Assembly: GCF_003385955.1 (NCBI RefSeq)
Contig: NZ_QRDW01000004.1
Span: forward strand, 1 to 64,000
Reading direction: 5' to 3'
Origin: Aestuariispira insulae
Lineage (GTDB): Bacteria; Pseudomonadota; Alphaproteobacteria; UBA8366; Aestuariispiraceae
DNA length: 64,000 nucleotides
In this document: positions 14,656 to 32,686 of the stretch, piece by piece
Numbering within the stretch: position 1 is the first letter of the stretch
How the letters are laid out: each line of letters starts with the position of its first letter
Translations under genes and position numbers: made by a program
Notes under the pieces: model-generated
What the model was told of the DNA's origin: nothing
Database searches by the model: none
The model's input: only the letters and a program-made list of their open reading frames with translations

Positions 14656-15306
14656 ATGACTTGGCAAAATACCCTCCCATTTTTTAAAGATGGCCGCTGT
14701 GACACGGTAATGGCGCGTGTCCGTGCCGAGGTCGAGGCCGGTAAAGAGGTCTTGCCCGCTTGGGATAAAATTTTTCGTGCCTATGACGAGATGACGCCGG
14801 AAGAGGTGAAGGTAGTAATCCTGGGACAGGATCCCTATCCGACGCCGGGACATGCCCATGGTTTGAGTTTTTCGGTGGAGGCGAATGTCCGCCCTTTGCC
14901 CCGGTCGCTGAACAACATTTTTAAGGAGTTGGAGACCGACTTGGGGATCGCCCGACCGGAGCATGGCAATCTTGAACATTGGGCGCGGCAGGGCGTGATG
15001 CTGTTGAACAGCAGCTTGACTGTCGAGGCTGGTAATGCCGGTTCCCATGCCAAATATGGCTGGATGGAACTCACGGATGAGACGATCAGCCATCTTAGCG
15101 GCCAATGCGAACATGTGGTTTTCATCCTGTGGGGCGGTCATGCCCGCAAGAAGAAGGATCTAATTGATCTATCAAACCATCTGATCATCGAATCCGCCCA
15201 TCCGTCGCCCCTGTCGGCATCGCGCGGTTTTTTCGGCAGCAGGCCATTCTCGCGCGCTAACCAGTATCTCAAGGCCCAGGGCCGAAACCCGATCAGATGG
15301 GGTTAA
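14656..15306 (+). CDS. ung: Uracil-DNA glycosylase, family 1
   Basis: This 216-residue base-excision-repair enzyme removes uracil from DNA. It has the catalytic water-activating motif GQDPYPTPGHAHGLSFSV (residues ~57-74) and the minor-groove loop HPSPLSASRGFFGSRPFS near the C-terminus. I chose the ATG at 14656 because MTWQN aligns with the usual ELTWHDVL beginning and CGGAG precedes it; the ATG at 14578 would add 26 residues. The stop overlaps the convergent fadE stop by four bases. Confidence 0.95.
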   Translation: MTWQNTLPFFKDGRCDTVMARVRAEVEAGKEVLPAWDKIFRAYDEMTPEEVKVVILGQDPYPTPGHAHGLSFSVEANVRPLPRSLNNIFKELETDLGIARPEHGNLEHWARQGVMLLNSSLTVEAGNAGSHAKYGWMELTDETISHLSGQCEHVVFILWGGHARKKKDLIDLSNHLIIESAHPSPLSASRGFFGSRPFSRANQYLKAQGRNPIRWG

Positions 15307-17723
15307 CCCTTTAACCGGGCGTGGGCTGTTGGTTTGTAAGCACGGACCTGGATCACCTGATCCTGTAAGCTCAGAGCGGCCTGCAGATCAGTAAATTCAT
15401 CCGAAGTGATGATGTCGGCATCAAAAGCACGCTGTGCCTGGGTGGCCAGAGGCTCTGCCGGAATCTGACCGACTTTCAGGGCGGCGCGGATTTTCTGGCG
15501 GGCCGGTTTGGATTTCATCAAGGCCGCCTCGGCTGCCATCATCTGCCCCAGACCTTCTTCCTCCGGATCGGGTAGATACATGTCGCCACAGATTCGCTCC
15601 CGCGTTGGCCCCCTATCAAGAATGGCATTGGCAATTTTTGCGCCGATCCGGTCGGAGGGCGGTTTTTGCCGACGGCCCAGCGGGAAGAGCAGGGGGCGGA
15701 GCAGATACCCCAGCCATCGGTTGGGCATGTTGGCCAGGATGCCGTCAAACGCTTCTTCAATGTGATAGTTAGCTTGCGTGCAGGACCAGTCGAGGAGATG
15801 GCGGTCATCTGCCTGACACCCTTCATCATGGAAGCGTTTCAGCGCGGAAGAGGCGATATACATCCAGGAAAGCGCATCCGCATAGCGGCCACTCAGCTTT
15901 TCCCGCCGTTTCAGAGCGCCGCCCATGCTGGCAAGGGCGATATCCGTGAGCAGGGCAAAACCGGCACTATACCGGTTGAGTTTCCGGAAATACCTGGCCT
16001 CCGGCCCGGACGAGGGCGTGGCAGAGCCGTGGCCGTTTGTCATGCCTAGAACCAGGCTGCGGGCGGCATTCCGGCTGACAAAATTGATATGATCGAAAAA
16101 GGCGTCGTCGAAGGATTTTATATCGCCTTTGGCTATGGCGTGCATCTCACGCTGGATGAAGGGATGGCTGCGAATGGCACCCTGGCCGAAAATGATCATG
16201 GATCGGGTAAGGATATTGGCCCCTTCCACTGTGATCGCGATCGGGACCGCGTTATGGGCCCGCGACAAGTTATTCCCGGGGCCTCTGCAAATGCCGGAAC
16301 CGGCAGCGATATCCAAGGCATCAGTGACTGATTGGCGCATTGAATCGGTGAGATATGCCTTCACAATAGCAGAAACCACTGACGGTTTTTCTCCGGCATC
16401 GACCGCACCACAGGTCATGCGTCTGGCCGCGTTCATCCAATAAGCGTTTCCGGCCATGCGGGCCAGGGGTTCCTGAATACCTTCAAATCGACCTATCTGC
16501 ATGTTGAACTGTTCGCGGACACTGGCATAGGTGGCGGAATGGCGGCAGACGGTCTGGACGGCGGAAACCGAGAGCGAGGGCAGCGATATCGATCGGCCCG
16601 CTGCCAGACAATCCATAAGCATCATCCAGCCCCGACCGACACCGTCACGCCCGCCGATCACCTGATCCAGGGGGATGAAAACATCTTTGCCCAGGATCGG
16701 CCCATTTTGAAAGGGGATGCCCATGGGATCATGCCGTTCCCCGATGGTAATGCCCTTCACATCCCTGGGAATCAGAGCGCAGGTGATGCCTAGATCCTCG
16801 TCGTCGCCGAGCAAATGGTCCGGGTCGTATAGACGGAACGCCAAGCCGATACAGGTCGCAACCGGTGCCAGTGTAATATAGCGTTTCGACCAACTGAGCT
16901 GGATGCCGAGCGTTTTTTTGCGGCCAATGGTTTTCTCAACAATTGTACCGATGCTGCGGCTGGCTGCGGCATCGCTGCCGGCATGGGGTTCGGTCAGGGC
17001 GAAGCATGGAATGTCCCGGCCGTCGGCAAGGCGGGGAAGGTAATGTTTGCGCTGTTTGTCCGTGCCGTAATGCAACAGCAATTCCGCGGGCCCCAGCGAG
17101 TTTGGCACCATGACGGTAACCGCAGCGGTGATAGACCGGCTGGCCAGTTTCACCACGACGGCAGAATGTCCAATGGCGGAAAACTCCAGACCGCCATAGA
17201 TCTTGGGAATGATCATGCCGAAGAAGCCATGTTTCCGCATGAAGTCCCAGATTTCCGGCGGTAGGTCACGTTTTTGCTGAATCTCCCAGTCATCCAGCAT
17301 TTTGCAGAGCTGTTCAACCGGTCCATCCAGGAATGCCTGCTCTTCGTCGGACAGGGGGGTGATCGGGAAATCCATCAGTTTGCGCCAATCCGGCTGGCCG
17401 GAAAATAGATCGCCATCCCACCAGACGGTTCCGGCTTCCAGCGCTATACGCTCGGTTTCCCCCATGCGGGGCAGCAGGCCTTTAACAAATTTCATGAGGG
17501 GTTTTGTCACCATTTGGCGGCGCAGGTTGCCAAGGCCGGTTACAACGGCAATTGCCGCCATGATCAGCCCTAAGAGAGGGAGCAGAAATCCGTCTGTTCC
17601 CCCTTGTTGCGCCCAGGCCGCAAGAAGCAGCACTGCTGATACGGTCCAGGCGACATAGCCGTAACCGAAGAAACAGAACAAAACCAAAAGAACAACTGCC
17701 AGGAGGATCAATAGGGCTGTCAT
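15303..17723 (-). CDS. fadE: Acyl-CoA dehydrogenase FadE
   Basis: An 806-residue FadE-type flavoenzyme catalysing the first oxidation of beta-oxidation. Two to three N-terminal membrane segments (residues 1-65) precede a 740-residue acyl-CoA dehydrogenase core with CFALTEPHAGSDAAASRSIG (FAD/substrate motif, about residue 240) and the C-terminal DUF1974-like region. The length is close to E. coli FadE (about 814). It is the last gene of the four-gene fatty acid operon, 33 bases downstream of the hydratase/dehydrogenase gene. Confidence 0.95.
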   Translation of the reverse strand: MTALLILLAVVLLVLFCFFGYGYVAWTVSAVLLLAAWAQQGGTDGFLLPLLGLIMAAIAVVTGLGNLRRQMVTKPLMKFVKGLLPRMGETERIALEAGTVWWDGDLFSGQPDWRKLMDFPITPLSDEEQAFLDGPVEQLCKMLDDWEIQQKRDLPPEIWDFMRKHGFFGMIIPKIYGGLEFSAIGHSAVVVKLASRSITAAVTVMVPNSLGPAELLLHYGTDKQRKHYLPRLADGRDIPCFALTEPHAGSDAAASRSIGTIVEKTIGRKKTLGIQLSWSKRYITLAPVATCIGLAFRLYDPDHLLGDDEDLGITCALIPRDVKGITIGERHDPMGIPFQNGPILGKDVFIPLDQVIGGRDGVGRGWMMLMDCLAAGRSISLPSLSVSAVQTVCRHSATYASVREQFNMQIGRFEGIQEPLARMAGNAYWMNAARRMTCGAVDAGEKPSVVSAIVKAYLTDSMRQSVTDALDIAAGSGICRGPGNNLSRAHNAVPIAITVEGANILTRSMIIFGQGAIRSHPFIQREMHAIAKGDIKSFDDAFFDHINFVSRNAARSLVLGMTNGHGSATPSSGPEARYFRKLNRYSAGFALLTDIALASMGGALKRREKLSGRYADALSWMYIASSALKRFHDEGCQADDRHLLDWSCTQANYHIEEAFDGILANMPNRWLGYLLRPLLFPLGRRQKPPSDRIGAKIANAILDRGPTRERICGDMYLPDPEEEGLGQMMAAEAALMKSKPARQKIRAALKVGQIPAEPLATQAQRAFDADIITSDEFTDLQAALSLQDQVIQVRAYKPTAHARLKG

Positions 17724-17756: not shown

Positions 17757-20084
17757 TCAATTCCTGAGCGGCCTGCCGGTTTTCAGTATATGGCTTACTC
17801 TGTCCTGGCTGGCCGGCATACGGGCCAGGGAGACGAACTGATCCCGCTCCAATTCCAACAGTCGGTTGCCTGAGACAGGTTTCAGATGATCGGTATCGCC
17901 GCCGCTCAATGTGATGCCCAGATGTTTTGCCACCACACTATCATGGGCTGTCACCAAGCCCATTCGTTTGAAGCCTTCAACGGCCATTTCCAAGGCGGCG
18001 CGGGCCGTCTCGCCGGGAAGATAGATGTTTGCCGGTTCCGGTGGCCTGTAATCGTCAACCATGGCAAGCGCGCGTGCCTTGGCATCGGCCAGCAGACGGT
18101 CCCGGTTCATGGTGATGCCGTCACCGTCGCGCAGGATCAGCATCTCTTGTGCTTGTGCGGCGGATTTTGCGACCTTGGCGGTTGCGATCATCTCAAAACT
18201 GTTGATGACAGGCGGCATCGGACCGCGGGGTTTGGTTCTGTCCTGGGACCAGCGGAATAACATTTCCTTGCAACCGCCCCAGCCGGGGATGACGCCGATT
18301 CCGGTTTCCACCAGGCCGGAATAGGTTTCCGCATGGGCCTGGATAGCGTCACAATGCAGCAGGATCTCGCAGCCACCGCCAAGGGCCATGCCGGAGGGCG
18401 CGCCGACAACCGGGAAGGGGGCATGTTTCAAGGCATCAAAGGTTTCCTGGCCTTGTTTGATCAAATAGCGCACGGCAAACCATGCCCGGATTTTCATCGC
18501 CCCCAATAACAGGCCCACATTGGCGCCAACAGAGAAATTGCTGCCTTCGTTATAGATCACCAGGGCTCGATAACGGCGTTGGCAAAGCTTGATCGCTTTG
18601 CGGATCATGCTGAGGGTGAACGGGTTTAGGGAGTTCATCTTGCTGGTGAATTCCAGGCAAAGCACGCCATCACCGATGTCCCAGAGGTTGGCGGACATAT
18701 TCCGCGCAACGGGTTTTGAGGCGTGTTTGATATCGGCCAGCAACAAAATCCCGTCGGGCCGTTGAAAATCGCGATAATCACCGGTCAGGTCGAGATATTG
18801 TCTCTGTCCACGGTGAGTTCGGTAGAAGGAGCGATTACCCGCGGTCTGGATCAGGGGCGGGACATCGATCCCTTCTGCCTGCAGGCGCTCCCGAAACCAA
18901 CCGGTACCTAATTGGTCGATCAGTTCAAACGGTCCGTATTTCCAGTTATACCCCTGGCGCATGGCCTCATCGACAGACAGAATGTCATCAGCAATTTCCG
19001 GCACCAGGCTGGCAGCATAGGCTAGAACCCGCAACAAAACCCATCCGGCATATTGTCCGGCCTGATCAGGATGGCCGATGAAGGCCTTCAATCCTTTCTT
19101 CCGGGCCAGCTGAACGCTTTCCAGTTTCGGTTTTTGCGCCTTGGCATAGTCACCGGTGGTTAGGTTTATCGCTTCCTTGATTTTTTTATCCGTGTCCGGT
19201 TTCAACCGATAAAAACCGCCTTTTCCCTTTCGACCGGTATAGCCATCGGCAATCATTTTATCCAGCAAAGGGAAATCCCGGTTGACCGAATGAAACGGGT
19301 CGTCCGGCGGCAGGCTTTCCTTCATGCTCGAGAGAATGCGCGGCATCAGGTCCAGGCCAACCATGTCAAGCAATCCGAAAACCCCTGTCTTTGGGATGCC
19401 GCAGGGGCGTGACAATGCAGCGTCGGCCGCTTCGATCGGCACCCCGTCATCCAATGCTTTGGCAACGGCGCATTGCAGCCAGAAAATCCCGATCCGGTTG
19501 CCGATGAAACCTGGTGTATCGTGGCAATTCACGACGGATTTCCCGAGCTTACGGTCGGCAAAGGATCGGATCATCTCCAACGCATCGGATTTGGTATCCG
19601 GTCCGGCCACCATCTCGAACAGCCGCAGATAGCGGGGCGGGTTGAAGAAATGGGTGATCAGGAAATCCTGCGAGAATTTCTTCGGCATCCCTTTCACGAG
19701 ATCACCCAGCGGGATGGTTGAGGTATTGGAGGAGACAATAGAGCCCGGTTTTCGGGCCAACTGGATCTGTTTATAGAGGCGGCGTTTAAGCTTGATATCC
19801 TCAATAATGGCTTCAAGGATCCAGTCGCATTCAGCCAGCCGGTGCATGTCATCTTCGATATTGGCTGGCGTGATCAATGCCGCATTCGAAGGATGCATGA
19901 AAGCTTCCGGGTCAGATTTTAGCAGCTTTTTTATCGCTGTCTTGGCCAGAATATTCCGGTCTTCTGCACCTTCGGGCACGATATCGAGCAAGATGACCGG
20001 TATGCCGGCATTAGTGATATGGGCGGCGATGCTGGCCCCCATCACTCCCGATCCGAAAACGGCGACTTTGCCGATCTTTTTCAT
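17757..20084 (-). CDS. 3-hydroxyacyl-CoA dehydrogenase / enoyl-CoA hydratase, FadN-like
   Basis: A 775-residue bifunctional beta-oxidation enzyme with the dehydrogenase first and the crotonase last, the reverse of FadB/FadJ and like FadN. The Rossmann motif KVAVFGSGVMGASIA starts at residue 5 and the dehydrogenase catalytic His is in LITHFFNPPRY. The C-terminal hydratase keeps GGGCEI and LVETGIGVIPGWGG with both catalytic glutamates. The start is set by the overlap with the thiolase stop (TAATG, one base), which suggests translational coupling; the frame extends 68 codons upstream without similarity. Confidence 0.93.
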   Translation of the reverse strand: MKKIGKVAVFGSGVMGASIAAHITNAGIPVILLDIVPEGAEDRNILAKTAIKKLLKSDPEAFMHPSNAALITPANIEDDMHRLAECDWILEAIIEDIKLKRRLYKQIQLARKPGSIVSSNTSTIPLGDLVKGMPKKFSQDFLITHFFNPPRYLRLFEMVAGPDTKSDALEMIRSFADRKLGKSVVNCHDTPGFIGNRIGIFWLQCAVAKALDDGVPIEAADAALSRPCGIPKTGVFGLLDMVGLDLMPRILSSMKESLPPDDPFHSVNRDFPLLDKMIADGYTGRKGKGGFYRLKPDTDKKIKEAINLTTGDYAKAQKPKLESVQLARKKGLKAFIGHPDQAGQYAGWVLLRVLAYAASLVPEIADDILSVDEAMRQGYNWKYGPFELIDQLGTGWFRERLQAEGIDVPPLIQTAGNRSFYRTHRGQRQYLDLTGDYRDFQRPDGILLLADIKHASKPVARNMSANLWDIGDGVLCLEFTSKMNSLNPFTLSMIRKAIKLCQRRYRALVIYNEGSNFSVGANVGLLLGAMKIRAWFAVRYLIKQGQETFDALKHAPFPVVGAPSGMALGGGCEILLHCDAIQAHAETYSGLVETGIGVIPGWGGCKEMLFRWSQDRTKPRGPMPPVINSFEMIATAKVAKSAAQAQEMLILRDGDGITMNRDRLLADAKARALAMVDDYRPPEPANIYLPGETARAALEMAVEGFKRMGLVTAHDSVVAKHLGITLSGGDTDHLKPVSGNRLLELERDQFVSLARMPASQDRVSHILKTGRPLRN

Positions 20085-21220
20085 TACGCGGCCTCCAAAA
20101 TGGTGGCGATACCCTGACCTCCGCCGATGCATTGGGTGGCCAGCGCGATCTGCCCGCCGCCCCTGGCGAGCAAACTGGCGGCCTTGCCGGTAATGCGGGC
20201 ACCGGTCGCGCCGAGCGGATGCCCGATGGCGATCGCGCCGCCATGGAGATTGACCTTCTCCTGGCTGAGGCCCAGATCTCCCAAACAAGCCAGGGCCTGG
20301 GAGGAGAAGGCTTCATTTACCTCGGCAATGTCGATATCCTCGACCTTTAACGCTGCGCGTTCCAGGGCTTTTCTGGTGGCAGGCACGGGGCCGATGCCCA
20401 TGATCTCCGGGGCACAACCCGCAATCGCGATGCCTCTGATCCGGGCAAGAATGGTAAGACCGTTGGTTATTGCATAATCCTTGCTGCAAACCAATGTGAT
20501 GCTGGCGCCGTCGGTCAGGGGTGAAGAGGTGCCGGCGGTGACGGTGCCTGTCCGCTCGAAAGCAGGCTTAAGGGCAGCAAGCCCTTCCAGGTTGGTATCC
20601 GGGCGGATGCAGCCGTCTTTCACCACCATGCCATCCTCTGAGGTGATCGGAATGATCTCTTCCTTGAAGGCTGATTGCTCATCGGCTCTTGCTGCCTTAA
20701 TATGTGACTGGACTGCGAAACCTTCCTGTTCTGCTCGGGAAATCTGGTATTTCTGGGCGACGTTTTCCGCCGTTTCACCCATGGAAATATAGGAGGCTGG
20801 AAATCTCTTATACAGTCCCGGATGGGGCATTGGGTTGAAACCCATCATGGGGACGCGCGACATGGATTCGACGCCGCCACACAAAAAAGCCTCGCCGGCA
20901 TTCATCTGAATGGCACCGGCAGCCATATGGATGGCATACATCGACGATCCGCAAAAACGGTTGACGGTGGCGCCGGCGACCGTCAGCGGCAGGTCTGCAT
21001 TAAATGCTGCCAGTCGAGCCATGTTGAGGCCCTGTTCGCCCTCGGGGAAGGCACAGCCCAGAATAAAATCCTCCAGATCATTAGGATCAACGCCGGTTCT
21101 TTCCAGAAGACCGCGTATGACCTGGGCCATCAGATCATCCGGCCTGACAGAGGCGAGCGCTCCTTTGGTTGCCTGCGTGAAGGGAGAACGCGCATATCCG
21201 CAGATAACCACTTCTCTCAT
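20084..21220 (-). CDS. fadA: Acetyl-CoA C-acyltransferase (3-ketoacyl-CoA thiolase)
   Basis: A 378-residue thiolase that cleaves 3-ketoacyl-CoA to acetyl-CoA and a shortened acyl-CoA. The nucleophile is Cys88 in VNRFCGSSM; the conserved NEAFSSQ, GGAIAIGHPLGATGAR and TQCIGGGQG motifs are all present. The length is typical. It lies 21 bases downstream of the acyltransferase/hydrolase/ligase fusion and overlaps the FadN-like gene by one base, so it belongs to a single operon. Confidence 0.95.
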   Translation of the reverse strand: MREVVICGYARSPFTQATKGALASVRPDDLMAQVIRGLLERTGVDPNDLEDFILGCAFPEGEQGLNMARLAAFNADLPLTVAGATVNRFCGSSMYAIHMAAGAIQMNAGEAFLCGGVESMSRVPMMGFNPMPHPGLYKRFPASYISMGETAENVAQKYQISRAEQEGFAVQSHIKAARADEQSAFKEEIIPITSEDGMVVKDGCIRPDTNLEGLAALKPAFERTGTVTAGTSSPLTDGASITLVCSKDYAITNGLTILARIRGIAIAGCAPEIMGIGPVPATRKALERAALKVEDIDIAEVNEAFSSQALACLGDLGLSQEKVNLHGGAIAIGHPLGATGARITGKAASLLARGGGQIALATQCIGGGQGIATILEAA

Positions 21221-21241: not shown

Positions 21242-24200
21242 TCAGTCTCCGGCTGAGGCCACGGTCGGTGCGGGGCCCGCTGGTTCGGTCAGTTCCGCGA
21301 TCAGGTCGCGTTTGGATATTTTGCCAATGGGTGTCTTTGGTAGCTCATCGCGAAATTCGATCCGGCGCGGTATCTTGTAAGGGGCCAGGCGCTCTTTGAG
21401 ATATTGCCGCAAGGCACCAGCGGTTAGTTCTTTACCCGCCTTGAGCTGGATGAAGGCCATGACGGTTTCACCACGATGTTCGTCCGGCAGCCCGATGACT
21501 GCGGCTTCGGCGACGGCGGGATGCTGGTAAATCTCTTCTTCCACCATGCGCGGATAGACATTGAAACCGCCGCTGAGGATCATCTCTTTGATCCGGTCGA
21601 CAATGAACAGATAGCCATCTTCATCCAAATAACCGAGATCGCCGGTTCGAAGCGCTGTATCATAAAATACATCAGATCCCTCATCGGAATTCGAGGTGTA
21701 ACCTGACATCACCTGCGGGCCGGACACACAGATCTCGCCGATTTCGCCGGCCGGCATCTGAACCCCGTTCCCGTCTATGGATCTGATGCTGATGATGGTG
21801 CGTGGCAGTGGCAGGCCAACGGATCCCGGTTTCCCGCCACCCGTCAGCGGGTTGACGGTGCAAACCGGGCTGGTCTCTGAAAGCCCATAACCTTCAAAAA
21901 TCGGGCAATCCGCGAGTATCTCAAAATGGTCTTGCACGGCGCGCGGCAATGGCGCACCACCGGATATGCACAAAGTCAGACTGGAAAGGTCGTGCTGTTC
22001 CGGGTTCATGGCCCCATTGATGGCGGAATACATGGTTGGCACGCCGATAAAGATGGTTGGTTTCAGCTTGGTTAGTGTCTCCATGACCTTGGAAAGCTGG
22101 AAATTGGGTAGCAGGATTAGCTCCGCCCCGAGATAGATTCCCAAATTCATCACGGCCGTCATGCCAAAGGCATGGAACAGCGGCAGGATGCCAAGAACCT
22201 TTTCATGCCCCTTTTCCGCGTTCCGGGCCAGTTGGGTCAACTGGATGACATTGGCATAAAGATTCGCATGGCTGAGTTTGGCCCCTTTGGGACGACCGGT
22301 TGTGCCGCCGGTATATTGCAGGACGGCAATATCATTGATCGGATCGAGAATGGGCGGATCAATCAGACCGTCATTATTGACCAGGGCGGCAAAAGGAACA
22401 TGGCGATCATCTTCCGGGATCTTCGCCACCTCTTTTGACTTCATCAGATCAAACAGGATTTTGTCGGTCAGTTTCAAAAGCCCGCTCACCCGGCAGACGA
22501 TTAGTTTGCGCAATCCCATGGGCAACGTATCTTTGCCTTTTTCCGGCGCGATTTTTTCATACATACCCTTCATATCCAGCGTCACCATCAATCTGGCACC
22601 GGAATCCCGGACCTGATGGGAGATTTCGTGACGGGAATAGAGTGGGTTGATCTGCACCACCGTGCCACCGGCTTTCAGGATGCCGTAAAAACAGATGACA
22701 GCATAAGGGCAGTTGGGCAGCATCATGGCAACAACCGAGCCCTTGGTAACCCCAAGCTGCTGAAAACCCCTGGCCGCTTTATCCACCAATTTGCCGATTT
22801 CCCTGTAGCGCAGACGCTTGCCGCGGAAATGGGTGCACGGCTTATCCGAATATTTGGTGACGGCCTCATCAAGCAGATCCGTCAATGGTGCGATGGGGAT
22901 GGTGCTGTCCCAATTTGTACCGTCGGGATAGGATTTCTCCCAGGGATATTTTTCCGTTTCCGTCTGTATTTCCGGCGGCTCACCTGGACTACGCAGCATT
23001 TGAAAGCGCTTTAGGCCAGTTTTTAGAACCTTGAGCGGATGCTGAAAGACTGCATCCAGGGAAAATACCGGTGTGCCGACTTTGTGAGGCTGGGACAGGT
23101 TTTTTTGTTCTGCGACATGGCCGAGGGCCACGGATAATTCCAATGATAGTTTGTCCACATAATCCGCAATAATGTCCTGGCAACCGCCAAGATCCTCATT
23201 CAGAATTCCATGCCGGTTGGCGGGAAGAATGTTCAGCTTTTTGTTTGCAGAAGCTATTTTCTCGTGAAGGATGGTCGCGCTGACAGGATCGATCACAGGG
23301 TCATCCTTTCCCTGCAAGATCAGGGCCGGGCAGGTGACAATATCCAAATGGTCACGCATATCGTTGACCAGTAACCTGAGCTCTTGCAGGCCGGCAAGCG
23401 GGATATTCCGGTAGTTGATGTCCGGATGCTCCGATTCATTCACCCGGAATGTCATGATCCCTTCCGCCGGAGTGACCATCTCCGTCAGTTTGTTCAAGCT
23501 GTTGATCAAAGGAACAAAAACGAGGTTTTTATTCCGGAATTTCACCGGGGCGGACACGCTGACCACCGCAGCCAGCCGTTTCGGTTTCTCAGCGGCCAGC
23601 CGCAGGCACAGCGCGCCGCCGGTTGAAAACCCGATCAGACAGACCTCGTCCGCCAACATTGACATGATTTCATAGCCGCGGCGCACGGAGCCCAGCCATT
23701 CCTGCCAACTGCGATCCTTTAGATCCCAGGGGGATGTACCATGCCCGCGCAAGCGCGCCCCCAGCACGGGATAGCCCATAGCCCAGAGTTTTTCTCCAAA
23801 AGATCGCATTTCCGCAGGCGATGCCAGAAAGCCATGAACCAGCACAATGCCCAGGCGCGCCTGCTGTTTTCTGGCCCTGCCTTCCGGCATCAGCAGAAAG
23901 GGCGCACCGGATTTTGTCGCGGTTTCCTGCTTGTTGATTTCCTCATGGCGGCTTCTGGAATAGGTTTCCCGGCACCAGTGGAAGGCTTTTACCTCGTCAT
24001 CAAACAGGTTATGGGCAAATGTTGGATGTTCGGCGGGATATTCATTTTCCATGGCCTGTTCAACGGCAAGACAAGCCGATTTCACCGGACGAGCCTCGTT
24101 GGCATAGACGATGATCGGGTTTTCCAGCCTGGTTTCATGGAAAGTATGTTCCTGGCGCAGTTTGGGCAGGAACCGATACCGGTTGGCGGTGGCCTCGATC

Positions 24201-25432
24201 AGGCCGGAGGAAACGGCCCGGCCAATGAATTGGCTGAAGCCCCGGCAGCTGCCTTGGTGGATACCGTCATAGGCCTCAGGATTGGAAATGGATCGATGAT
24301 GATGGATGTCCGGCTGGGCCTGGGCATTTTTGATCACGCTATAGAGCAGGCGGTGAAAACGGTCATGCTCAATTTCTTCGATATTGCGATCCAATAGGTT
24401 CAGGATCAACAAGGAAGCAAGATGACTGAGATTAATTGAGACCAGCGCGTACATGGAATGCATGCATTTATCCCGCAGACGTGTGGTCTTCCGGGCCAGA
24501 GCGGTGCCGATCATCCGATCCACCAGGCGGTCTGAACCGGTTTGTAGGGAAAAAAGCTGCTCCAGGCTTTCAGTACGCTCAAACATCTGCTTTAGCAGGA
24601 TGTTTTCAAGCGGGTTCCAGGATAATTCCGGCACGCGCGGTTTGCCGATACGGATATCCATATCCGTTTCCTTCAACAGGATATTGCCCTCGATCAGCAA
24701 TTCCTCCCGGGCCTGACTGCCCAGTTCGCCACCGAACAGCTCCATGCCTTTGCGCAGGATATTGTCATCGCTGCGGATCGGATAGAAGGTGATATTGCTG
24801 GGCACCACCTGGGTCGGTTTTTGGGCGGCGGCAATCATCATCTCCAGATCGCCGAAACCAAGCGCGTTGACCCAGCGGTACAGCCGGTCCTCTTCACCGG
24901 CTTTATGGACCGACAGGATGCGGCGCTTGAACATTTCAAGCGTGATCGCGATGGCGGCGGCACCCTTGTGATGCTTTCTGTGGGTTTTGTCGGATGGTGA
25001 AAAAATGCTGTATTTGCCATCCTGATCAACCACGCGGCGGTCCTTGATCATGCCACCTTCGGGAAAAACAATGATCTTGCGACCGCGCAGGATTTCAGCA
25101 GCCAGGAACGGCAAAAGGCCCGGATGATTGTTGGGGACAGCCCCCACATTCCAGAGGAATTTCGAAAACGTCTCGCTGCCGGCAAACAGTTCATGGGTTG
25201 CGATCGAGCGGCAATAGGCGCCGGTCTGTTTATGGATCAGATATTGCGGGATGATGGTTTCGAAACGGGCAAAATGGTTGAACAGGAATATCTGCCCGGA
25301 ATCCAGGTAGTTTTCAGGATCATGCACCTTGATGTTGATGCCCAGCCGGTCATGCAGGAAGGAAAACGCGCCCACGCATCGCTGGTAGGTGGTTTCATTA
25401 ATCTGATGATGACCCATACTCCCTGACGTCAT
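21242..25432 (-). CDS. Trimodular acyltransferase - alpha/beta-hydrolase - long-chain acyl-CoA synthetase fusion
   Basis: One uninterrupted 1396-residue frame joins three enzymes. Residues about 40-260 form a PlsC/PlsB-like acyltransferase with NHFARFE (53-58, an HX4E in place of HX4D) and FPEGG (123-127). Residues about 520-770 are an alpha/beta hydrolase with oxyanion HGF (533-535), nucleophile Ser603 in GFSTGG, Asp710 or 711 and His741, resembling monoacylglycerol lipases. Residues about 845-1380 are a FadD-type ligase with TGGTTGRPKGAK (1041-1052), GYGLSE (1181-1186), TGDLGY (1263-1268) and PIGKISK (1368-1374). A linker with no recognised domain occupies 270-510. As first gene of the beta-oxidation operon it could release, activate and reacylate fatty acids. 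Start follows AGAGGA. Confidence 0.92.
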   Translation of the reverse strand: MTSGSMGHHQINETTYQRCVGAFSFLHDRLGINIKVHDPENYLDSGQIFLFNHFARFETIIPQYLIHKQTGAYCRSIATHELFAGSETFSKFLWNVGAVPNNHPGLLPFLAAEILRGRKIIVFPEGGMIKDRRVVDQDGKYSIFSPSDKTHRKHHKGAAAIAITLEMFKRRILSVHKAGEEDRLYRWVNALGFGDLEMMIAAAQKPTQVVPSNITFYPIRSDDNILRKGMELFGGELGSQAREELLIEGNILLKETDMDIRIGKPRVPELSWNPLENILLKQMFERTESLEQLFSLQTGSDRLVDRMIGTALARKTTRLRDKCMHSMYALVSINLSHLASLLILNLLDRNIEEIEHDRFHRLLYSVIKNAQAQPDIHHHRSISNPEAYDGIHQGSCRGFSQFIGRAVSSGLIEATANRYRFLPKLRQEHTFHETRLENPIIVYANEARPVKSACLAVEQAMENEYPAEHPTFAHNLFDDEVKAFHWCRETYSRSRHEEINKQETATKSGAPFLLMPEGRARKQQARLGIVLVHGFLASPAEMRSFGEKLWAMGYPVLGARLRGHGTSPWDLKDRSWQEWLGSVRRGYEIMSMLADEVCLIGFSTGGALCLRLAAEKPKRLAAVVSVSAPVKFRNKNLVFVPLINSLNKLTEMVTPAEGIMTFRVNESEHPDINYRNIPLAGLQELRLLVNDMRDHLDIVTCPALILQGKDDPVIDPVSATILHEKIASANKKLNILPANRHGILNEDLGGCQDIIADYVDKLSLELSVALGHVAEQKNLSQPHKVGTPVFSLDAVFQHPLKVLKTGLKRFQMLRSPGEPPEIQTETEKYPWEKSYPDGTNWDSTIPIAPLTDLLDEAVTKYSDKPCTHFRGKRLRYREIGKLVDKAARGFQQLGVTKGSVVAMMLPNCPYAVICFYGILKAGGTVVQINPLYSRHEISHQVRDSGARLMVTLDMKGMYEKIAPEKGKDTLPMGLRKLIVCRVSGLLKLTDKILFDLMKSKEVAKIPEDDRHVPFAALVNNDGLIDPPILDPINDIAVLQYTGGTTGRPKGAKLSHANLYANVIQLTQLARNAEKGHEKVLGILPLFHAFGMTAVMNLGIYLGAELILLPNFQLSKVMETLTKLKPTIFIGVPTMYSAINGAMNPEQHDLSSLTLCISGGAPLPRAVQDHFEILADCPIFEGYGLSETSPVCTVNPLTGGGKPGSVGLPLPRTIISIRSIDGNGVQMPAGEIGEICVSGPQVMSGYTSNSDEGSDVFYDTALRTGDLGYLDEDGYLFIVDRIKEMILSGGFNVYPRMVEEEIYQHPAVAEAAVIGLPDEHRGETVMAFIQLKAGKELTAGALRQYLKERLAPYKIPRRIEFRDELPKTPIGKISKRDLIAELTEPAGPAPTVASAGD

Positions 25433-25589
25433 GATGGTCCTCTGTGGTGGGCACGGAACGGGAGAACTGTCTCAAGAGTACATTATGTTAATGATATAGC
25501 GTTAATTTTCTCTTGCCACCGATAGTTTGTCGCAGGCCGGACAGCGCCCATTCCGGCGCTGTTGGTTTGGCAATGATTATGGGACCGGA

Positions 25590-27008
25590 TCAGCGGCCCA
25601 ACAGCCCCTTAGGGTCAAAATGGGCTTTCAACGCGGTTTGTGCCGCCAGGGTGGCAGCGGGCAAATATTTTTCGCAATAATGCCGGTTGATTGGGCCAAC
25701 GCCATGTTCTGCGCTAAAGGACCCGTTCAGGCCTTCCATGACGATCTTGTAGATATCGGTGCGAATCTCTTCCGCGATCTCGGGGCAATAGGGCTGGGCG
25801 CCATGGGGCCAGATCAGGTTGAAATGTTCGCCGCCATCACCGCGATGGCCAAAATCATAGATCTTGAGATAGGGATATTTTTCAGCCAGCAGGGCTTTTG
25901 CCCGTCGGCGGAATTCCCCCAGCGAGGATCGGGGGCAGGAAATGTCATGGGCGATGATCCTGCCTTCCTGGGCGACAGCTTCGGAAATGGAATGGCGCAG
26001 CCCCCAAATCTCTTCCGGCCGGTTGAATACCGCATTGGCGACCGCGCCGGAACCATCGTCGGCATAGAGCGCCATGATCTGTTCGGCGAGAAAATCCTCC
26101 AGGCTGCTGCCCAGGCTTTCGCTGTCAGCGGCGGAAAATTCCACCAGAAGACAATCATCGGGGGGATTATCGAACTGGGCAAACGGGTTGGGCAGGGCTG
26201 GGCGGTGTTTCAACACCACCTCAACAGTAGCACGCGACAGACTCTCAAAGGCGGTCAGCCAAGGGCCTGCATGATGTTCCAGATGCAGCAGAATTTCATC
26301 CATGGCCGCTTCATCACGCGGTACGACCAGTGCAACCGCGCGGTCTTTCGGGCTGGGATGCAGTTCCAGGATCGCCCGCGTGACGATGCCATATTGGCCG
26401 CCGGTGCCGGTGAAAAGCTGTTTGAGATCCAGGCCCAGATTGTTTTTCCGCAAGGCCTTCAGGTCATCGATCACGGTACCCTCGGCATCGGGCAGTACCA
26501 CTTCCACACCCAAAAGATTGCGTCGGACATCGCCATATCGGATCAGCCTGGATCCGCCGGTATTGGTGGCGATCATCCCGCCAACGGTCGGGTCGGCCCC
26601 AAGATCAATGGGAAAGAATAAGCCGTGACTGGCCAGGGCCTGGTTCAATTGGGAGAGGGAGACACCCGCACCGACCAGAACGGACCGGTTGATGGGATCA
26701 ATCTCGATCGGTGCTTTTAGCCGTTCCAGGCTCAAGACCAGCATCTGGCCACCTTCATCAGGAGTGGATGCACCTGTTAGTCCGGTATTCGCCCCCTGCG
26801 GGACAACCGGCACATCATGGGCAAAACAGGCACGCAGAACGGCTGATACTTCTTCCGTGCTGGCGGGGCGGGCAACGGCGAGCGCACGGCCATGGCCATA
26901 GCGCGCGCCTTTTTCGTAGCCGCTTAAATCCTGATCATGCCGCATCAGGTTTTTAGCGCCGATGGCGGCTTCCAGCCGATCTAAGAATTCCGTCCGTTCT
27001 GCATGCAT
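25590..27008 (-). CDS. FAD-linked D-2-hydroxyacid (D-2-hydroxyglutarate-type) dehydrogenase
   Basis: The 472-residue flavoprotein is of the GlcD/D-lactate/D-2-hydroxyglutarate dehydrogenase family (FAD_binding_4 plus FAD-oxidase_C). Visible motifs are PQGANTGLTGAS (FAD pyrophosphate loop, about residues 70-81), GADPTVGGMIATNTGG, the metal-site histidines in FGHRGDGGEHFN and the C-terminal SAEHGVG. It starts 19 bases after the stop of the HglS-like gene in the same direction, so it most likely oxidises the D-2-hydroxyglutarate made by that enzyme to 2-oxoglutarate. This substrate is inferred from context. Confidence 0.88.
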   Translation of the reverse strand: MHAERTEFLDRLEAAIGAKNLMRHDQDLSGYEKGARYGHGRALAVARPASTEEVSAVLRACFAHDVPVVPQGANTGLTGASTPDEGGQMLVLSLERLKAPIEIDPINRSVLVGAGVSLSQLNQALASHGLFFPIDLGADPTVGGMIATNTGGSRLIRYGDVRRNLLGVEVVLPDAEGTVIDDLKALRKNNLGLDLKQLFTGTGGQYGIVTRAILELHPSPKDRAVALVVPRDEAAMDEILLHLEHHAGPWLTAFESLSRATVEVVLKHRPALPNPFAQFDNPPDDCLLVEFSAADSESLGSSLEDFLAEQIMALYADDGSGAVANAVFNRPEEIWGLRHSISEAVAQEGRIIAHDISCPRSSLGEFRRRAKALLAEKYPYLKIYDFGHRGDGGEHFNLIWPHGAQPYCPEIAEEIRTDIYKIVMEGLNGSFSAEHGVGPINRHYCEKYLPAATLAAQTALKAHFDPKGLLGR

Positions 27009-27027
27009 GCTTTTTGTCTTTCCCGGA

Positions 27028-28062
27028 TTACTCGGCGGCGGCGGCCGTCATTTTAAAAATGCCCTGGGCATTGGAGCTGTCAAAGCGAAGATCCATTTTA
27101 TCGGGCGTATTCAGAGATTTATGTCGGGTGATAAATTCAACAAATGAACCCGGAACCTGATAGGGAGTAAGGGTGCCGTCCTCTCCGATCATATAACGGC
27201 GGACCATCGTGGCCTTATAGGCCGTCTGCAAGACGGTCTTATCCTTGGAAACCTCGACTTTGTCTTTGATCGGCTGGCCCTTGGCACGAAGCTGATCGGC
27301 CAATCCTTCAACATCGGCGACCCGGTCGGTCAGATGATTGAAGAAAGTGCCTTCGGTGGCGATCCAGGCCATTTCATCGGATTCCGTTTTTAGGATCTCA
27401 TAATCCCGACGGGTCGGAACGGAGTGCTGTCGATCAAAGGCGCGGGCTAGATCCGCCAGCAGGGACGGAGCTTCATCGGTAGGGAGCGCGCCGGTGTCGG
27501 CTAACAACGACAATGCCGCTTTGGACCGATCGGACAAAGGATCCCGGCTGGTTTTGATGACCCGTTCCGCCGCAGCACGGAAATCATCGGAAAACTGACT
27601 GGTGTCCAATTCGCTGACAAAGAACTGCGCGATATCTTCCGGAAGGTCTGCATGGCAATAGGCATGACCCATCATCTTAAGGCGCGCCAGCGGATATTCC
27701 TCAACCCGTTCAAAACCCAGTGGTTCCAGGATGCGGGCGATGCTGGCCCGGCCTTCGGGCAGCGCACCGCAATCGACACCGCATACCGTGCGAACAGCGC
27801 CATGGTCAAAAACAATCTTCTCACCACCTGCCAACTTGTCTGATACATAACGGCGGCCCTCCGGCACATTATCCACCAGTTTGCGGAACAGGATCATGGT
27901 CATGGCTTGAGCCACAACAGCCCGGGATGCGATTCGAGTTTCTGCTCCCTGCTGCAGGAGGGCAGGCGTGATCTCGATGGTGTGGAATAACTCTTCGGTC
28001 TGGGCTTCGCCCACCGTTTCGCTCAGCAGTTTCCACAGCAGACTCTTATGTTCGGTTGTCAT
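27028..28062 (-). CDS. hglS: 2-oxoadipate dioxygenase/decarboxylase (HglS, DUF1338)
   Basis: A 344-residue Fe(II)-dependent VOC-fold enzyme that converts 2-oxoadipate to D-2-hydroxyglutarate in lysine catabolism. Putative metal ligands are His87 (FDHGAVRTV), His243 (FFNHLTDRV) and Glu309 (PGSFVEF), with Arg91 four residues after the first histidine as in the characterised HglS. The start at 28062 marks the family N-terminus; the frame is open to 28131. It is followed by the D-2-hydroxyglutarate dehydrogenase-like gene and preceded by an Lrp regulator. Neighbours for other lysine steps are on the opposite strand. Confidence 0.88.
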   Translation of the reverse strand: MTTEHKSLLWKLLSETVGEAQTEELFHTIEITPALLQQGAETRIASRAVVAQAMTMILFRKLVDNVPEGRRYVSDKLAGGEKIVFDHGAVRTVCGVDCGALPEGRASIARILEPLGFERVEEYPLARLKMMGHAYCHADLPEDIAQFFVSELDTSQFSDDFRAAAERVIKTSRDPLSDRSKAALSLLADTGALPTDEAPSLLADLARAFDRQHSVPTRRDYEILKTESDEMAWIATEGTFFNHLTDRVADVEGLADQLRAKGQPIKDKVEVSKDKTVLQTAYKATMVRRYMIGEDGTLTPYQVPGSFVEFITRHKSLNTPDKMDLRFDSSNAQGIFKMTAAAAE

Positions 28063-28222
28063 GATCCTAGGATTCCATTTGTTGGCTGATTGATCTGGCC
28101 GATCAATAGGCCTCTCAAGAGGAAAAGCCAAACAATGATTAGCTGGATATTCACGATGAAACAGAATGAATTATTGCTGTATATAGGGCTTTTTGTGCTG
28201 TTTAAATAATGAAAAGGAATGA

Positions 28223-28675
28223 TTATCGGTCAAATTTGGTGGCAAGAATAATCGACGAGGTGGTTTCCGTGATGCCGGGGATGTCCCGGATTTTGTCCAA
28301 TGCCACATCCATCAGATCCATGCGTGATTCCTCGACTATCGCGATCAAGTCATATTTGCCGCTGATGGAATAGAGGCCGGTCACGGCGGGAATGCGTTCC
28401 AAAGCGGTTTCAATCCGCCCGCCGGGATTGGCGCCGGTCACGATCATCACATGGGCGCGGATGCGCGATGCTTCATAGCCCTTATCCAGTTTCAAGGTAA
28501 AACCGTGGATAATGCCCCTGTGGCGCAGACGGTCGATTCGGTTCTGTACGGTGGCGCGGGAAACCCCCAGTTTCCGCGCAAGAGAGGCATTGGGTTCCCG
28601 CGCGTCCGCATTCAACATCTGCAATAACTGCTGATCCAGGTTGTCCAGATTAGGAAATTGACCGTCATCGCTCAT
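28223..28675 (-). CDS. Lrp/AsnC-family regulator of the lysine catabolic genes
   Basis: A 150-residue feast/famine regulator with an N-terminal helix-turn-helix (KLGVSRATVQNRIDRLRHRGII, residues about 29-50) and a C-terminal RAM domain for amino acid binding (MIVTGANPGGRIETAL to the SIILATKFDR end). It sits between hglS, reading the same way, and a divergent lysine/saccharopine dehydrogenase-family gene. Lysine or 2-aminoadipate is a reasonable guess for its effector. Confidence 0.88.
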   Translation of the reverse strand: MSDDGQFPNLDNLDQQLLQMLNADAREPNASLARKLGVSRATVQNRIDRLRHRGIIHGFTLKLDKGYEASRIRAHVMIVTGANPGGRIETALERIPAVTGLYSISGKYDLIAIVEESRMDLMDVALDKIRDIPGITETTSSIILATKFDR

Positions 28676-28837
28676 TGGCTTCAGGCTCCGTCAGACTGAT
28701 TTATGACGAATTGATAAGTCATTTTGTCGATATGTTCAAAAAAAATTACCATATTGGCATAATGCTCTCTTCGATCTGACAGGTTTCGGACGCATGCTGG
28801 TGATAGAACAAAACATCAGTTTCCATGGGAGATGGAC
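28676..28837. promoter_or_regulatory. Divergent promoter region of lrp and the dehydrogenase gene
   Basis: This 162-base intergenic stretch separates the divergent lrp-like and lysine/saccharopine dehydrogenase genes. It contains an AT-rich core (about 28715-28760) with a run of A at 28739-28747 and TTGGCATAAT. It must hold both promoters and is the likely site of Lrp binding. I cannot fix the exact boxes. Confidence 0.5.
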
Positions 28838-29950
28838 ATGAAAGAAATTCTGCTGATCGGTAGCGGTAAAATTGGTGAGGTTATTGCGGATCTGCTCTGC
28901 AATACCGGTGATTATGCGGTGACCATCGCAGACCAGTCCGAGAGCCAGCTTAACCGGATTGAAAAGCACAAGAACCTGTCCACCCTGGTGTTGGATGCCA
29001 GCAGCAAGGATGAGTTGGTCAAGGCAATGGCAGGTAAATTCGCGGTTCTGTCTGCGGCCCCCTTCTTCCTGACCAAGACCATTGCCGGAGCGGCGAAAGA
29101 CGCTGGTATTCATTATTTTGACCTGACCGAGGATGTGGCCTCCACCGATGTGGTGAAGGAATTGGCAAAAGACGCTAACAGCACCTTTATCCCGCAATGC
29201 GGTCTGGCGCCGGGCTTTATTTCCATTGTCGCCTATGACCTGGCGAAAAAGTTCGATGAGCTGGATACTGTCCGCATGCGTGTTGGCGCGTTGCCGAAAT
29301 ATCCGTCCAACCGCCTGAACTATAACCTGACCTGGTCCACCGAAGGCGTGATCAACGAATATTGCAATCCCTGCGACGCCATTGTTGAGGGTGAGTTGCA
29401 GAAGGTTCCGGCGCTTGAGGAATTGGAAGAGTTTTCCCTGGACGGCATCCGCTATGAAGCCTTCAACACATCGGGCGGCCTGGGCACGCTGTGCGAAACG
29501 CTCAAGGACAAGGTGAAATATTTGAACTACCGCTCGGTCCGTTATCCGGGCCACCGGGATGTGATGAAGCTGTTGATCGAGGATCTGAAGCTGAACGAGC
29601 GTCGTGGGATGCTCAAAGACATCTTCGAATATGCCCTGCCGGTCACCATGCAGGATGTTGTCCTGATCTTTGTTACTGTTTCGGGTAAGAAAAACGGCAT
29701 GCTGGTTCAGGAAACCTATGCCAACAAGGTCTATTCCCGCGCCATAAACGGCCGCCATCGCAGTGCGATCCAGATCACGACCGCATCGGGTATCTGCGCG
29801 GTTGTCGATATGCTTGCCAAGGGCGATCTGCCGCAAAAAGGCTTTGTCAAACAGGAAGATATCAGCCTGGATACCTTCCTGGCTAACCGGTTCGGCAAAA
29901 ATTATGCAAAAGCCGAGGAACAGGTTGTGCTGGCCGCTGCTGCGGAATAA
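28838..29950 (+). CDS. Saccharopine dehydrogenase-family oxidoreductase, probable L-lysine 6-dehydrogenase
   Basis: A 370-residue NAD(P)-dependent enzyme with the Rossmann motif EILLIGSGKIGEVIA at residues 3-17, CGLAPGFISI near residue 130 and a NTSGGLGTL segment near residue 215. The layout matches lysine 6-dehydrogenases, which convert lysine to 2-aminoadipate 6-semialdehyde directly, as well as saccharopine dehydrogenases. No separate lysine-ketoglutarate reductase is nearby, which favours the one-step enzyme, but this is inference. The ATG at 28838 is preferred over 28832 because GGAG lies six bases before it. A terminator follows the gene. Confidence 0.75.
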   Translation: MKEILLIGSGKIGEVIADLLCNTGDYAVTIADQSESQLNRIEKHKNLSTLVLDASSKDELVKAMAGKFAVLSAAPFFLTKTIAGAAKDAGIHYFDLTEDVASTDVVKELAKDANSTFIPQCGLAPGFISIVAYDLAKKFDELDTVRMRVGALPKYPSNRLNYNLTWSTEGVINEYCNPCDAIVEGELQKVPALEELEEFSLDGIRYEAFNTSGGLGTLCETLKDKVKYLNYRSVRYPGHRDVMKLLIEDLKLNERRGMLKDIFEYALPVTMQDVVLIFVTVSGKKNGMLVQETYANKVYSRAINGRHRSAIQITTASGICAVVDMLAKGDLPQKGFVKQEDISLDTFLANRFGKNYAKAEEQVVLAAAAE

Positions 29951-29960
29951 TCACCTCTGA

Positions 29961-30002
29961 CAGGGCCGGGCAGGGATCCTTCCTGTCCGGCCTGTTTTTT
30001 TT
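29961..30002 (+). terminator. Intrinsic terminator after the lysine/saccharopine dehydrogenase gene
   Basis: CAGGGCCGGGCAGG (29961-29974) pairs with CCTGTCCGGCCTG (29982-29994), with small bulges, and is followed by an eight-base T-tract. It separates this gene from the semialdehyde dehydrogenase gene. Confidence 0.85.
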
Positions 30003-30182
30003 CGAGGCAGGCAACGTTATGGAATGATGATACGCGAAAGCATCATTTGACCCGATCCCGCTTCGATTGGACATATGGTCCAAGATTTTTCAGGCCGTGG
30101 GGTGCAACCCGCCGCCATAGCTGACAAGATACAAGGCGCAGATATCCTTGAAATGATGCGCGCTTGAAATGGAGAGCCGGAA

Positions 30183-31792: not shown

Positions 31793-32686
31793 TCAGAGGC
31801 TTTCCATCAGCTTTTCTCCGATGACGGCGATGGCGTTATTGCGCAGCTCGAAAGAGGCGCTGGTATCCGTTATATAAACAGCGGCAATAACCGGTTTCCG
31901 CTTCGGCGGGCGCAAAACAGCAATGATAGAGCGTGACCCGTGGCCGCCGGCGCCAGAGCGGTCCCCAATCAGCCAGTCTTTCGGCAGGCTGGAACGGAAT
32001 AATGGCCCGCTGACCTGGTTGCCTTCCAGCCAGCGGTTCAGCTGCGCGCGCGAGGCCGGGCTTAACCGATCTCCCAATGCGAGGGCCATTAGGCTGTTGG
32101 CTGCGGCCTCGGGGCTGGTGGTGTCTCGCGGGTCACCGGGGGCGGCTTCATTTAATTCGGGTTCCCAGCGGTCCAGCCGGGTGGTGTGATCGCCGATTTC
32201 CTGCATGAAACCGTTAAAGCCTTCCGGGCCGCCCAATTGATCCAGCACCAGGTTGGCAGCCGTATTGTCGCTCATATGCATGGCAGCCTGGCAGATGGAG
32301 GAAAGTGGCATTGGCGCAACGCCGGCAAAGCCTTCAGTCACCGGGGAATAGGTGACCAGATCTGCTTTTCCGAAACTGATCTCCGTATCCAATATATCCT
32401 CGCCTCGATCAGTTTTGGCCAGTATGCCGGCGCAGGCAAAAGCCTTGAAAGTGCTGTTAAGCGGGAACCGTTCCCGGGCCCGGTGCTGCCAGACCCGGTT
32501 TGTTTCCGTATCGAGTATATAAGCCCCAAGCCTGGCCTTCAGGCGGTTTTCGATATCGGGCAGGGCAAGCGTGAGCGGATCGCTTGCCGCCGGGGAGGTG
32601 GCGTTAGCGAATTTTCCGGTAACGGTTGCAAAAATGGCGGTCGATAACGCGGCCTTGGCAAAGGCGCGTCTGCTGACGTCTTTCAC
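31793..32686 (-). CDS. Class A beta-lactamase, CARB-like, Tat-exported
   Basis: This 297-residue protein is a serine beta-lactamase with all class A motifs: STFK (Ser78, Lys81), SDN (139-141), the omega-loop EPELNE (Glu175) and RSG (243-245) in the place of the common KTG. The RSG form, the TYSPV and RLDRWEPELNE stretches, and NQVSGPLFRSSLP match carbenicillin-hydrolysing CARB/PSE enzymes. An N-terminal twin-arginine signal (SRRAFAKAAL) suggests Tat export with the folded protein. No LysR AmpR-type regulator is adjacent and no mobile element is visible. It is probably a chromosomal intrinsic enzyme. Confidence 0.93.
   Translation of the reverse strand: MKDVSRRAFAKAALSTAIFATVTGKFANATSPAASDPLTLALPDIENRLKARLGAYILDTETNRVWQHRARERFPLNSTFKAFACAGILAKTDRGEDILDTEISFGKADLVTYSPVTEGFAGVAPMPLSSICQAAMHMSDNTAANLVLDQLGGPEGFNGFMQEIGDHTTRLDRWEPELNEAAPGDPRDTTSPEAAANSLMALALGDRLSPASRAQLNRWLEGNQVSGPLFRSSLPKDWLIGDRSGAGGHGSRSIIAVLRPPKRKPVIAAVYITDTSASFELRNNAIAVIGEKLMESL

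Follow-up and report, generated by a model that had tools for sequence, protein, structure and literature searches.

A chain with acyltransferase-like, lipase-like and FadD-type modules in Aestuariispira insulae, and the apparently repeated joining of FadD to a conserved two-domain unit

Why should a single bacterial reading frame encode an acyltransferase-like, a hydrolase-like and an acyl-CoA-synthetase-like module, and what could such a chain be for? The question is raised by a minus-strand gene at positions 21242 to 25432 of the 64,000-nucleotide stretch of Aestuariispira insulae DNA that was analyzed (contig NZ_QRDW01000004.1, positions 1 to 64,000; hereafter the window). From sequence comparison, the first two domains of its product form a conserved family that usually occurs without FadD, and FadD looks like a repeated addition to this family. 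The fusion may serve as a lipid-salvage enzyme that frees acyl chains, activates them and then either burns or re-esterifies them, a reading to which we give about as much belief as doubt. The parts of the gene are as follows, with fractions referring to 77 aligned relatives.

21242..25432, minus strand: whole fusion open reading frame (ORF), GPAT-like acyltransferase, monoacylglycerol-lipase (MGL)-like hydrolase and FadD-type acyl-CoA synthetase, 1396 aa
24443..25432, minus strand: acyltransferase core, residues 1–330 (PF01553 at 34–165); Pfam, structural match to GPAT1 and PlsC
25259..25279, minus strand: motif I NHFARFE, residues 52–58, HX4E form; N52, H53, R56 and E58 invariant in 77/77
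24044..24442, minus strand: acyltransferase C-terminal domain, residues 331–463, winged-helix-like, inside the GPAT1 match
23132..23986, minus strand: MGL-like alpha/beta-hydrolase, residues 483–767; Pfam, structure, profile
23624..23626, minus strand: codon of the nucleophile S603 (Ser 74/77, Ala 2, Gly 1)
23300..23302, minus strand: codon of the acid D711 (Asp 75/77, Glu 2)
23210..23212, minus strand: codon of H741 (His 77/77)
22964..23131, minus strand: hydrolase–FadD junction, residues 768–823, long type as in loci L009 and L039
21242..22963, minus strand: FadD-type long-chain acyl-CoA synthetase module, residues 824–1396 and stop; Pfam, NCBIfam

The fused frame and its relatives

The ORF is a single open frame from ATG to TGA. 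An earlier note on this DNA had described one unbroken frame of 1396 residues without naming a strand; the frame is there and lies on the minus strand, and frame 1 of the plus strand contains many stops across 21242–25432. The presence of three enzyme-like modules in one chain, proposed in the same note, is supported by the Pfam domains Acyltransferase (PF01553, residues 34–165, 35.6 bits with a cut-off of 23), Hydrolase_4 (525–746, 74.6 bits), AMP-binding (855–1245, 304 bits) and AMP-binding_C (1297–1371, 79.8 bits), and by motifs found at the places given there, namely NHFARFE at 52–58, FPEGG at 123–127, S603 within GFSTGG, D710/D711 and H741, together with the FadD motifs TGGTTGRPKGAK and TGDLGY. 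The FadD-type ligase is likewise complete, with AMP-binding, AMP-binding_C, the ATP-binding motif and TGD all present. Among the matches listed (25 of 110), its top NCBIfam matches are long-chain ligases, and among these same matches no curated cut-off was reached, the best being PRK05605 (501.9 of 766) and PRK06187 (440.8 of 476).

A search of other genomes for the same architecture, as the earlier note had suggested, recovered a full-length fusion of 1397 aa with 55% identity in G001, a genome of another genus of the same family, and nine further loci that carry the fusion. Because G001 and these nine loci share it, the fusion is not a frame error; an assembly artefact was rejected as well, since separate assemblies from different genera carry the same full-length frame, and the probability of either is practically negligible. 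The earlier note had set against its claim the case that close relatives always keep these parts as separate genes; this case does not hold, as FadD is a separate neighbor in some relatives and is fused in others. When six other fused proteins were scanned, Hydrolase_4, AMP-binding and AMP-binding_C were found in 6/6, and PF01553 reached the E 1e-4 limit just in L009, so that the acyltransferase label of the remaining five is taken from the alignment.

The acyltransferase and hydrolase together form a conserved unit of about 770 residues across 92 related loci. FadD is fused to the unit in 11 of these and is the next gene in 21; thiolase without FadD follows in 8, both are missing in 45, and the remaining 7 loci are cut off. 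A species-genome collection was scanned with two short conserved patterns, which picked out 340 stretches that code for relatives of the acyltransferase and hydrolase domains; the top 80 by similarity were kept, a sample that leans to Alphaproteobacteria. Ten rows had been dropped before the count (the duplicate loci L010–L013 and L118–L121, the cut-off L115, and L133, which is distant and has an internal stop), and the 92 rows include two identical pairs, that is, 90 different rows. Members of the core family occur in Rhodospirillales-type and other Alphaproteobacteria, in Gammaproteobacteria (Sedimenticola, Chromatiales, Methylococcaceae), in some Betaproteobacteria and in a small number of bins labeled Acidobacteria or Nitrospinota. 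At E values up to 1e-60, with the genome of A. insulae included, the unit was found in 16 of 385 genomes at class level, 6 of 43 at order level and 5 of 398 at phylum level; the six carriers of the order comprise three fused cases (the window, G001 and G036) and three with a separate neighboring FadD (G022, G027 and G031).

A mixture-model tree was calculated for 54 of these rows (11 fused, 21 adjacent, 5 of the 8 with thiolase without FadD, 17 of the 45 stand-alone, and no cut-off rows). The fused label needs five changes on this tree, all of them forced by well-supported branches, and the fused rows form one clade in 0 of 200 bootstrap trees. Furthermore, four classes of junction can be told apart by length, and they match clades: long (window, L009, L039), medium (L050), short (L070, L074, L085) and shortest (L062, L071, L075, L087). 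Several fusions are favored over fission because the junctions differ between the fused clades, and the unit–FadD fusion probably arose about four times. The linked FadD modules were also compared with each other, 28 of 32 being long enough, and with 25 unlinked competitors. The nearest relative of a unit-linked FadD is another linked FadD in 28/28 cases, and FadD distances track unit distances (r 0.68), with 0 of 2000 permutations giving a value as high.

Such joining could carry no mechanistic meaning if co-transcribed neighbors had merged by loss of a stop codon while their domains stayed independent. In L040, L042 and L114, the FadD frame starts in frame directly after the stop of the upstream gene, so merging would need little; these three loci are candidates, on their sequences, for readthrough of the stop codon or for an incipient fusion. 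On the other hand, fusion recurs with junctions of four types. Among the frames with a match to thiolase (34), 3-hydroxyacyl-CoA dehydrogenase (HCD; 29) and acyl-CoA dehydrogenase (ACAD; 24), none joins two of these enzymes, and none joins thiolase to FadD or to the unit. Among the frames covered, the fusion is therefore peculiar to the unit–FadD border, and a fusion without meaning is distinctly improbable. The functional link between the parts that the earlier note had put forward gains support from recurrent fusion together with recurrent adjacency, and this recurrent joining suggests that the modules work together.

Some further observations concern units outside this arrangement. No recurring theme was seen among 20 scanned neighbors of stand-alone units. 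In Sedimenticola, an AMP-binding-like gene precedes the stand-alone or cut-off unit (L082, L088, L089, L091, L092, L095 and L102); that of L082 is acetyl-CoA-synthetase-like (ACAS_N), not FadD. Loci L021 and L022 (from genomes G024 and G033) contain a FadD–thiolase pair with no unit within 1.5 kb upstream, and no unit was found anywhere in these two genomes at E 1e-60. Carriage of the unit by plasmids was rejected, no place in a plasmid collection covering 80% of the query, and so was carriage by viruses, with 0 relatives among 16 pattern matches in viral contigs.

The acyltransferase-like and lipase-like parts

Residues 1–776 were modeled on the 77 relatives (mean pLDDT 86.8, pTM 0.87). The structure listing for this whole model was filled by hydrolase matches, and residues 1–492 were therefore modeled alone (pLDDT 86.9) and searched separately. 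The best structural match of the acyltransferase model is human GPAT1 (8e4y; Z 18.1, rmsd 3.9, 328 aligned, model residues 1–463), which is also the top Foldseek match (E 5.8e-8, TM-score 0.47 of the query). PlsC ranks second (Z 13.5, 193 aligned); third comes a chain from an assembly intermediate of complex I that looks unrelated (7zkq_T, Z 12.6), and plastid GPATs score at Z of about 10.5. Of the "PlsC-like" N-terminus in the earlier note, the acyltransferase assignment stands, with PF01553 above its cut-off, and PlsC gives way as the best label to GPAT1, whose match is longer (Z 18.1 vs 13.5). The N-terminal part is therefore, on the predicted structure, GPAT-like rather than plain PlsC-like. 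Because the GPAT1 match spans residues 1–463, the stretch 300–480, which has no Pfam match, is most likely the C-terminal domain of the predicted GPAT-like enzyme. Model residues 331–452 also resemble ORC and FNR-type winged-helix domains (Z of about 6–7.6), which may be just a common arrangement.

At the sequence level, PF01553 is matched by 71/77 relatives at E up to 1. An hhalign comparison with E. coli PlsB was not significant (probability 0.4%, with a single-sequence template), the match to the PlsC-like proteins of the same genome spans motifs I to III (E 2.3e-4, with a probability of just 44%), and the NCBIfam 1-acylglycerol-3-phosphate acyltransferase model TIGR00530 scored 18.4 bits, below its cut-off of 102.95. 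N52, H53, R56, E58 and P124-E125-G126 are invariant in 77/77 relatives. Motif I has the HX4E form in all 77, never the HX4D form of the GPAT/PlsB type, and the last residue of motif III is Met in 72/77 (FPEGGM) vs Arg in E. coli PlsB (FVEGGR); at the place of motif II, no arginine is common among the aligned relatives. One stand-alone PlsC-like protein of the same genome (L136:1282-2112) reads KHQSAWE at this motif, which is likewise HX4E.

In GPAT/PlsC enzymes, the arginines of motifs II and III bind the phosphate of the acceptor. If they do so, their absence makes glycerol-3-phosphate an unlikely acceptor, and the acceptor of the GPAT-like domain may be another compound. Because these phosphate-binding arginines are missing, an uncharged glycerolipid was proposed as the substrate. 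The pair of GPAT fold and MGL-like hydrolase would then represent an undescribed family of bacterial acylglycerol-cycle enzymes, in which a single chain strips acyl groups from an uncharged glycerolipid and also attaches them; together with FadD it would form a self-contained acyl-transfer device. We offer this more specific proposal tentatively, as possible but rather unlikely. If it is true, the FadD-fused device detaches an acyl chain from one lipid and, after activation, either places it on another lipid or passes it to β-oxidation.

The same departures from the GPAT/PlsB motifs (HX4E instead of HX4D, Met for the PlsB motif-III Arg in 72/77, no common motif-II arginine), together with a catabolic operon, could also be explained by degradation alone, in which the lipase and FadD feed β-oxidation and the GPAT-fold part is a membrane-, lipid- or CoA-binding platform that is no longer an acyltransferase. 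However, the invariant residues of motifs I and III are kept more strictly than the hydrolase serine, and a purely degradative role is disfavored for this reason. Furthermore, passages of PMC6286764 state that the corresponding His and Glu are both required in LpxL and that the Glu is required in LpxM, though in A. baumannii LpxM the His and Glu lie 7.6 Å apart and may serve two dyads, with the Glu possibly paired with an Arg; LpxL is given as HX4D and LpxM as HX4E in a part of PMC3087551. We consider degradation alone unlikely and return to lipid salvage, in which the GPAT-like domain would still transfer acyl groups.

The second part was correctly described in the earlier note as an MGL-like hydrolase, on the evidence of fold, profile and an intact Ser-Asp-His triad. 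The hydrolase model matches the bacterial MGL 5xks with a Z of 32.0 over 246 aligned residues at 28% identity, and a profile search led to the same assignment (E 2.8e-44). From its fold and triad, the hydrolase is predicted to be bacterial monoacylglycerol-lipase-like. The G001 fusion, which lies outside the 77 relatives, has Glu at the position of 711. The catalytic Ser is lost in L108 (Ala), L126 (Ala) and L103 (Gly), with Asp and His kept.

Operon, genome and proposed function

That the fusion heads a β-oxidation operon, a further claim of the earlier note, agrees with the thiolase, HCD/enoyl-CoA hydratase (ECH) and FadE-like ACAD genes that follow it on the same strand. The features around the fusion are as follows.

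20084..21220, minus strand: FadA-like thiolase, separated from the end of the fusion by 21 bp
17757..20084, minus strand: HCD/ECH, overlapping the stop of the thiolase by 1 bp, with Met 69 of the mechanical ORF taken as start
15303..17723, minus strand: FadE-type ACAD with a strongly hydrophobic N-terminus, after a 33-bp gap
25491..25519, minus strand: weak match to a sigma-70 site within the 157 bp that precede the fusion; number of such patterns at chance level

Thiolase, HCD/ECH and ACAD are all present downstream in 7/7 fused, 10/11 FadD-adjacent and 3/3 thiolase-without-FadD loci with enough sequence; they follow 0/32 stand-alone units, partly by definition because stand-alone means without thiolase, and 13/45 stand-alone loci had too little downstream sequence for this count. 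With the window, which has all three genes, and G001, which does not, added, 18/20 FadD-linked loci carry the complete set. A promoter scan upstream of the fusion gave 5 sites vs 6.6 by chance, that is, no excess. The preceding gene on the same strand, 157 bp away, fits by family and neighbors an apparent lysine-degradation cluster, from which we infer that the fusion gene starts its own transcript. This cluster, at 25590–31688, reads as lysine degradation and contains five gene types: a D-2-hydroxyglutarate-dehydrogenase-like FAD oxidase, an HGLS-family 2-oxoadipate dioxygenase (the HglS pathway is treated in PMC7286885), an Lrp/AsnC regulator, a saccharopine-dehydrogenase-like protein and an aldehyde dehydrogenase; beside it, at 31793–32686 on the minus strand, lies a beta-lactamase-family protein (PF13354). 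The G001 fusion is followed by an HI0933-like gene, a family that is also found in the window at 11910–13145, beyond the operon.

In the proposed lipid salvage, the lipase domain, judged by its fold and triad, would act on a mono- or lyso-acyl lipid to release a fatty acid, and the complete FadD module would convert this to acyl-CoA with ATP and CoA. The acyl-CoA could then enter β-oxidation via the three enzymes of the operon, or the GPAT-like domain could add the acyl group back to an acceptor. The fusion would hold the acyl chain where the routes to burning and to re-esterification divide, and may channel it between its modules. In Rhodospirillales-type bacteria, the unit is often found immediately upstream of fadD, the first gene of a fadD-fadA-fadB-like-fadE operon, and has probably been fused to FadD several times.

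Elsewhere the genome encodes PlsX, PlsY and a pair of free-standing PlsC-like proteins; for this reason the fusion was rejected as the sole glycerol-phosphate acyltransferase. It also encodes a 1139-residue MFS(LplT-like)-PlsC-AMP-binding protein with the Aas architecture (L140:2930-7317, on contig C6 of genome G000), and the fusion was rejected as an Aas orthologue on account of this separate protein. With these proteins at hand, the cell need not rely on the fusion for ordinary phospholipid synthesis or for the repair of lysolipids. The start of the MFS-PlsC-AMP-binding gene is overlapped by 4 bp by a gene that encodes a putative alpha/beta-hydrolase of 323 aa, a call made by eye for which Pfam gives just DUF7379, slightly under its cut-off; the two genes constitute a second acyltransferase/ligase/hydrolase grouping in the genome. 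Another FadD, with 50% identity to that of the fusion, stands at the head of a parallel set of thiolase, HCD/ECH and ACAD genes, and Hydrolase_4 occurs at fourteen places, the fusion included, at E 1e-8. A search of the genome for the wax-ester/DGAT family gave no match, and as the control genomes gave none either, nothing follows from it.

An Aas-like remodeling would follow the same logic with a similar pair of domains: the hydrolase would remove an acyl chain from a phospholipid, FadD would activate it and the acyltransferase would add it back to repair a lysophospholipid, with the operon merely supplying acyl chains. LplT and Aas, too, occur both fused and split, according to a part of PMC11416262. 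However, the genome already has the MFS-PlsC-AMP-binding protein for such a role, and the ligase of the fusion is FadD-like and linked to β-oxidation genes rather than to a lysolipid transporter, which makes phospholipid remodeling quite unlikely. The lipid-salvage enzyme remains our preferred reading.

Several observations weigh against lipid salvage by a repeatedly formed fusion. The tree alone cannot separate fusion from fission, and the correlation between FadD and unit distances is also expected from shared descent. Coupling to β-oxidation is not the sole setting of the unit, as 45/92 units have neither FadD nor thiolase alongside, and just 3/20 scanned neighbors of stand-alone units look acyl-related (AMP-binding in L082 and L060, PHB-esterase-like in L072). 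In the adjacent locus L101, FadD is present and the rest of the gene set absent, and no β-oxidation gene was found in the three scanned genes downstream of the G001 fusion. The Ser-less unit of L108 (Kiloniella) precedes FadD, thiolase, HCD/ECH and ACAD, and the loss of Ser in 3/77 means that lipase chemistry is dispensable in some relatives. Finally, the GPAT1 match is weak by its Foldseek TM-score (0.47 of the query), and without the motif-II and motif-III arginines glycerol-3-phosphate is doubtful as acceptor.

The recurrent fused state nevertheless provides evidence, independent of assays, that ties lipid breakdown, fatty-acid activation and perhaps re-esterification together in these bacteria. 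In addition, both split and fused forms exist in nature, and a comparison of the two could show cleanly whether joining the parts leads to channeling of acyl chains.

Comparison with known systems

Among the open-access papers listed, judged by titles and the starts of abstracts, none deals with the three-part chain or with its two-part core family. OleBC fusions also join an alpha/beta-hydrolase to an AMP-binding enzyme; they belong to an olefin-biosynthesis family and are not known to contain an acyltransferase. Aas and LplT-Aas resemble the fusion in that one chain combines an AMP-binding ligase with a PF01553-superfamily acyltransferase. In contrast to the fusion, Aas has a plain PlsC domain directly followed by AMP-binding, is joined to a transporter and has no β-oxidation genes after it; in the fusion, a 285-residue MGL-like hydrolase intervenes.

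The individual modules have closer counterparts. The fold of GPAT1/PlsB is shared over residues 1–463, including the C-terminal domain, whereas the fusion differs in HX4E, in Met for the motif-III Arg and in the attached hydrolase; the sequence comparison with E. coli PlsB was not significant. The bacterial monoacylglycerol lipases of Bacillus H257 and Geobacillus 12AMOR are similar to the second part (Z 31–32, 26–28% identity, Ser-Asp-His), which differs from them in being embedded between two enzyme modules. The ligase part shares with FadD the entire AMP-binding and C-terminal domains; it differs in being one part of a longer chain and in scoring under the NCBIfam cut-offs among the matches listed. 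Each module is of a known kind, and the three-part chain is built from these known kinds.

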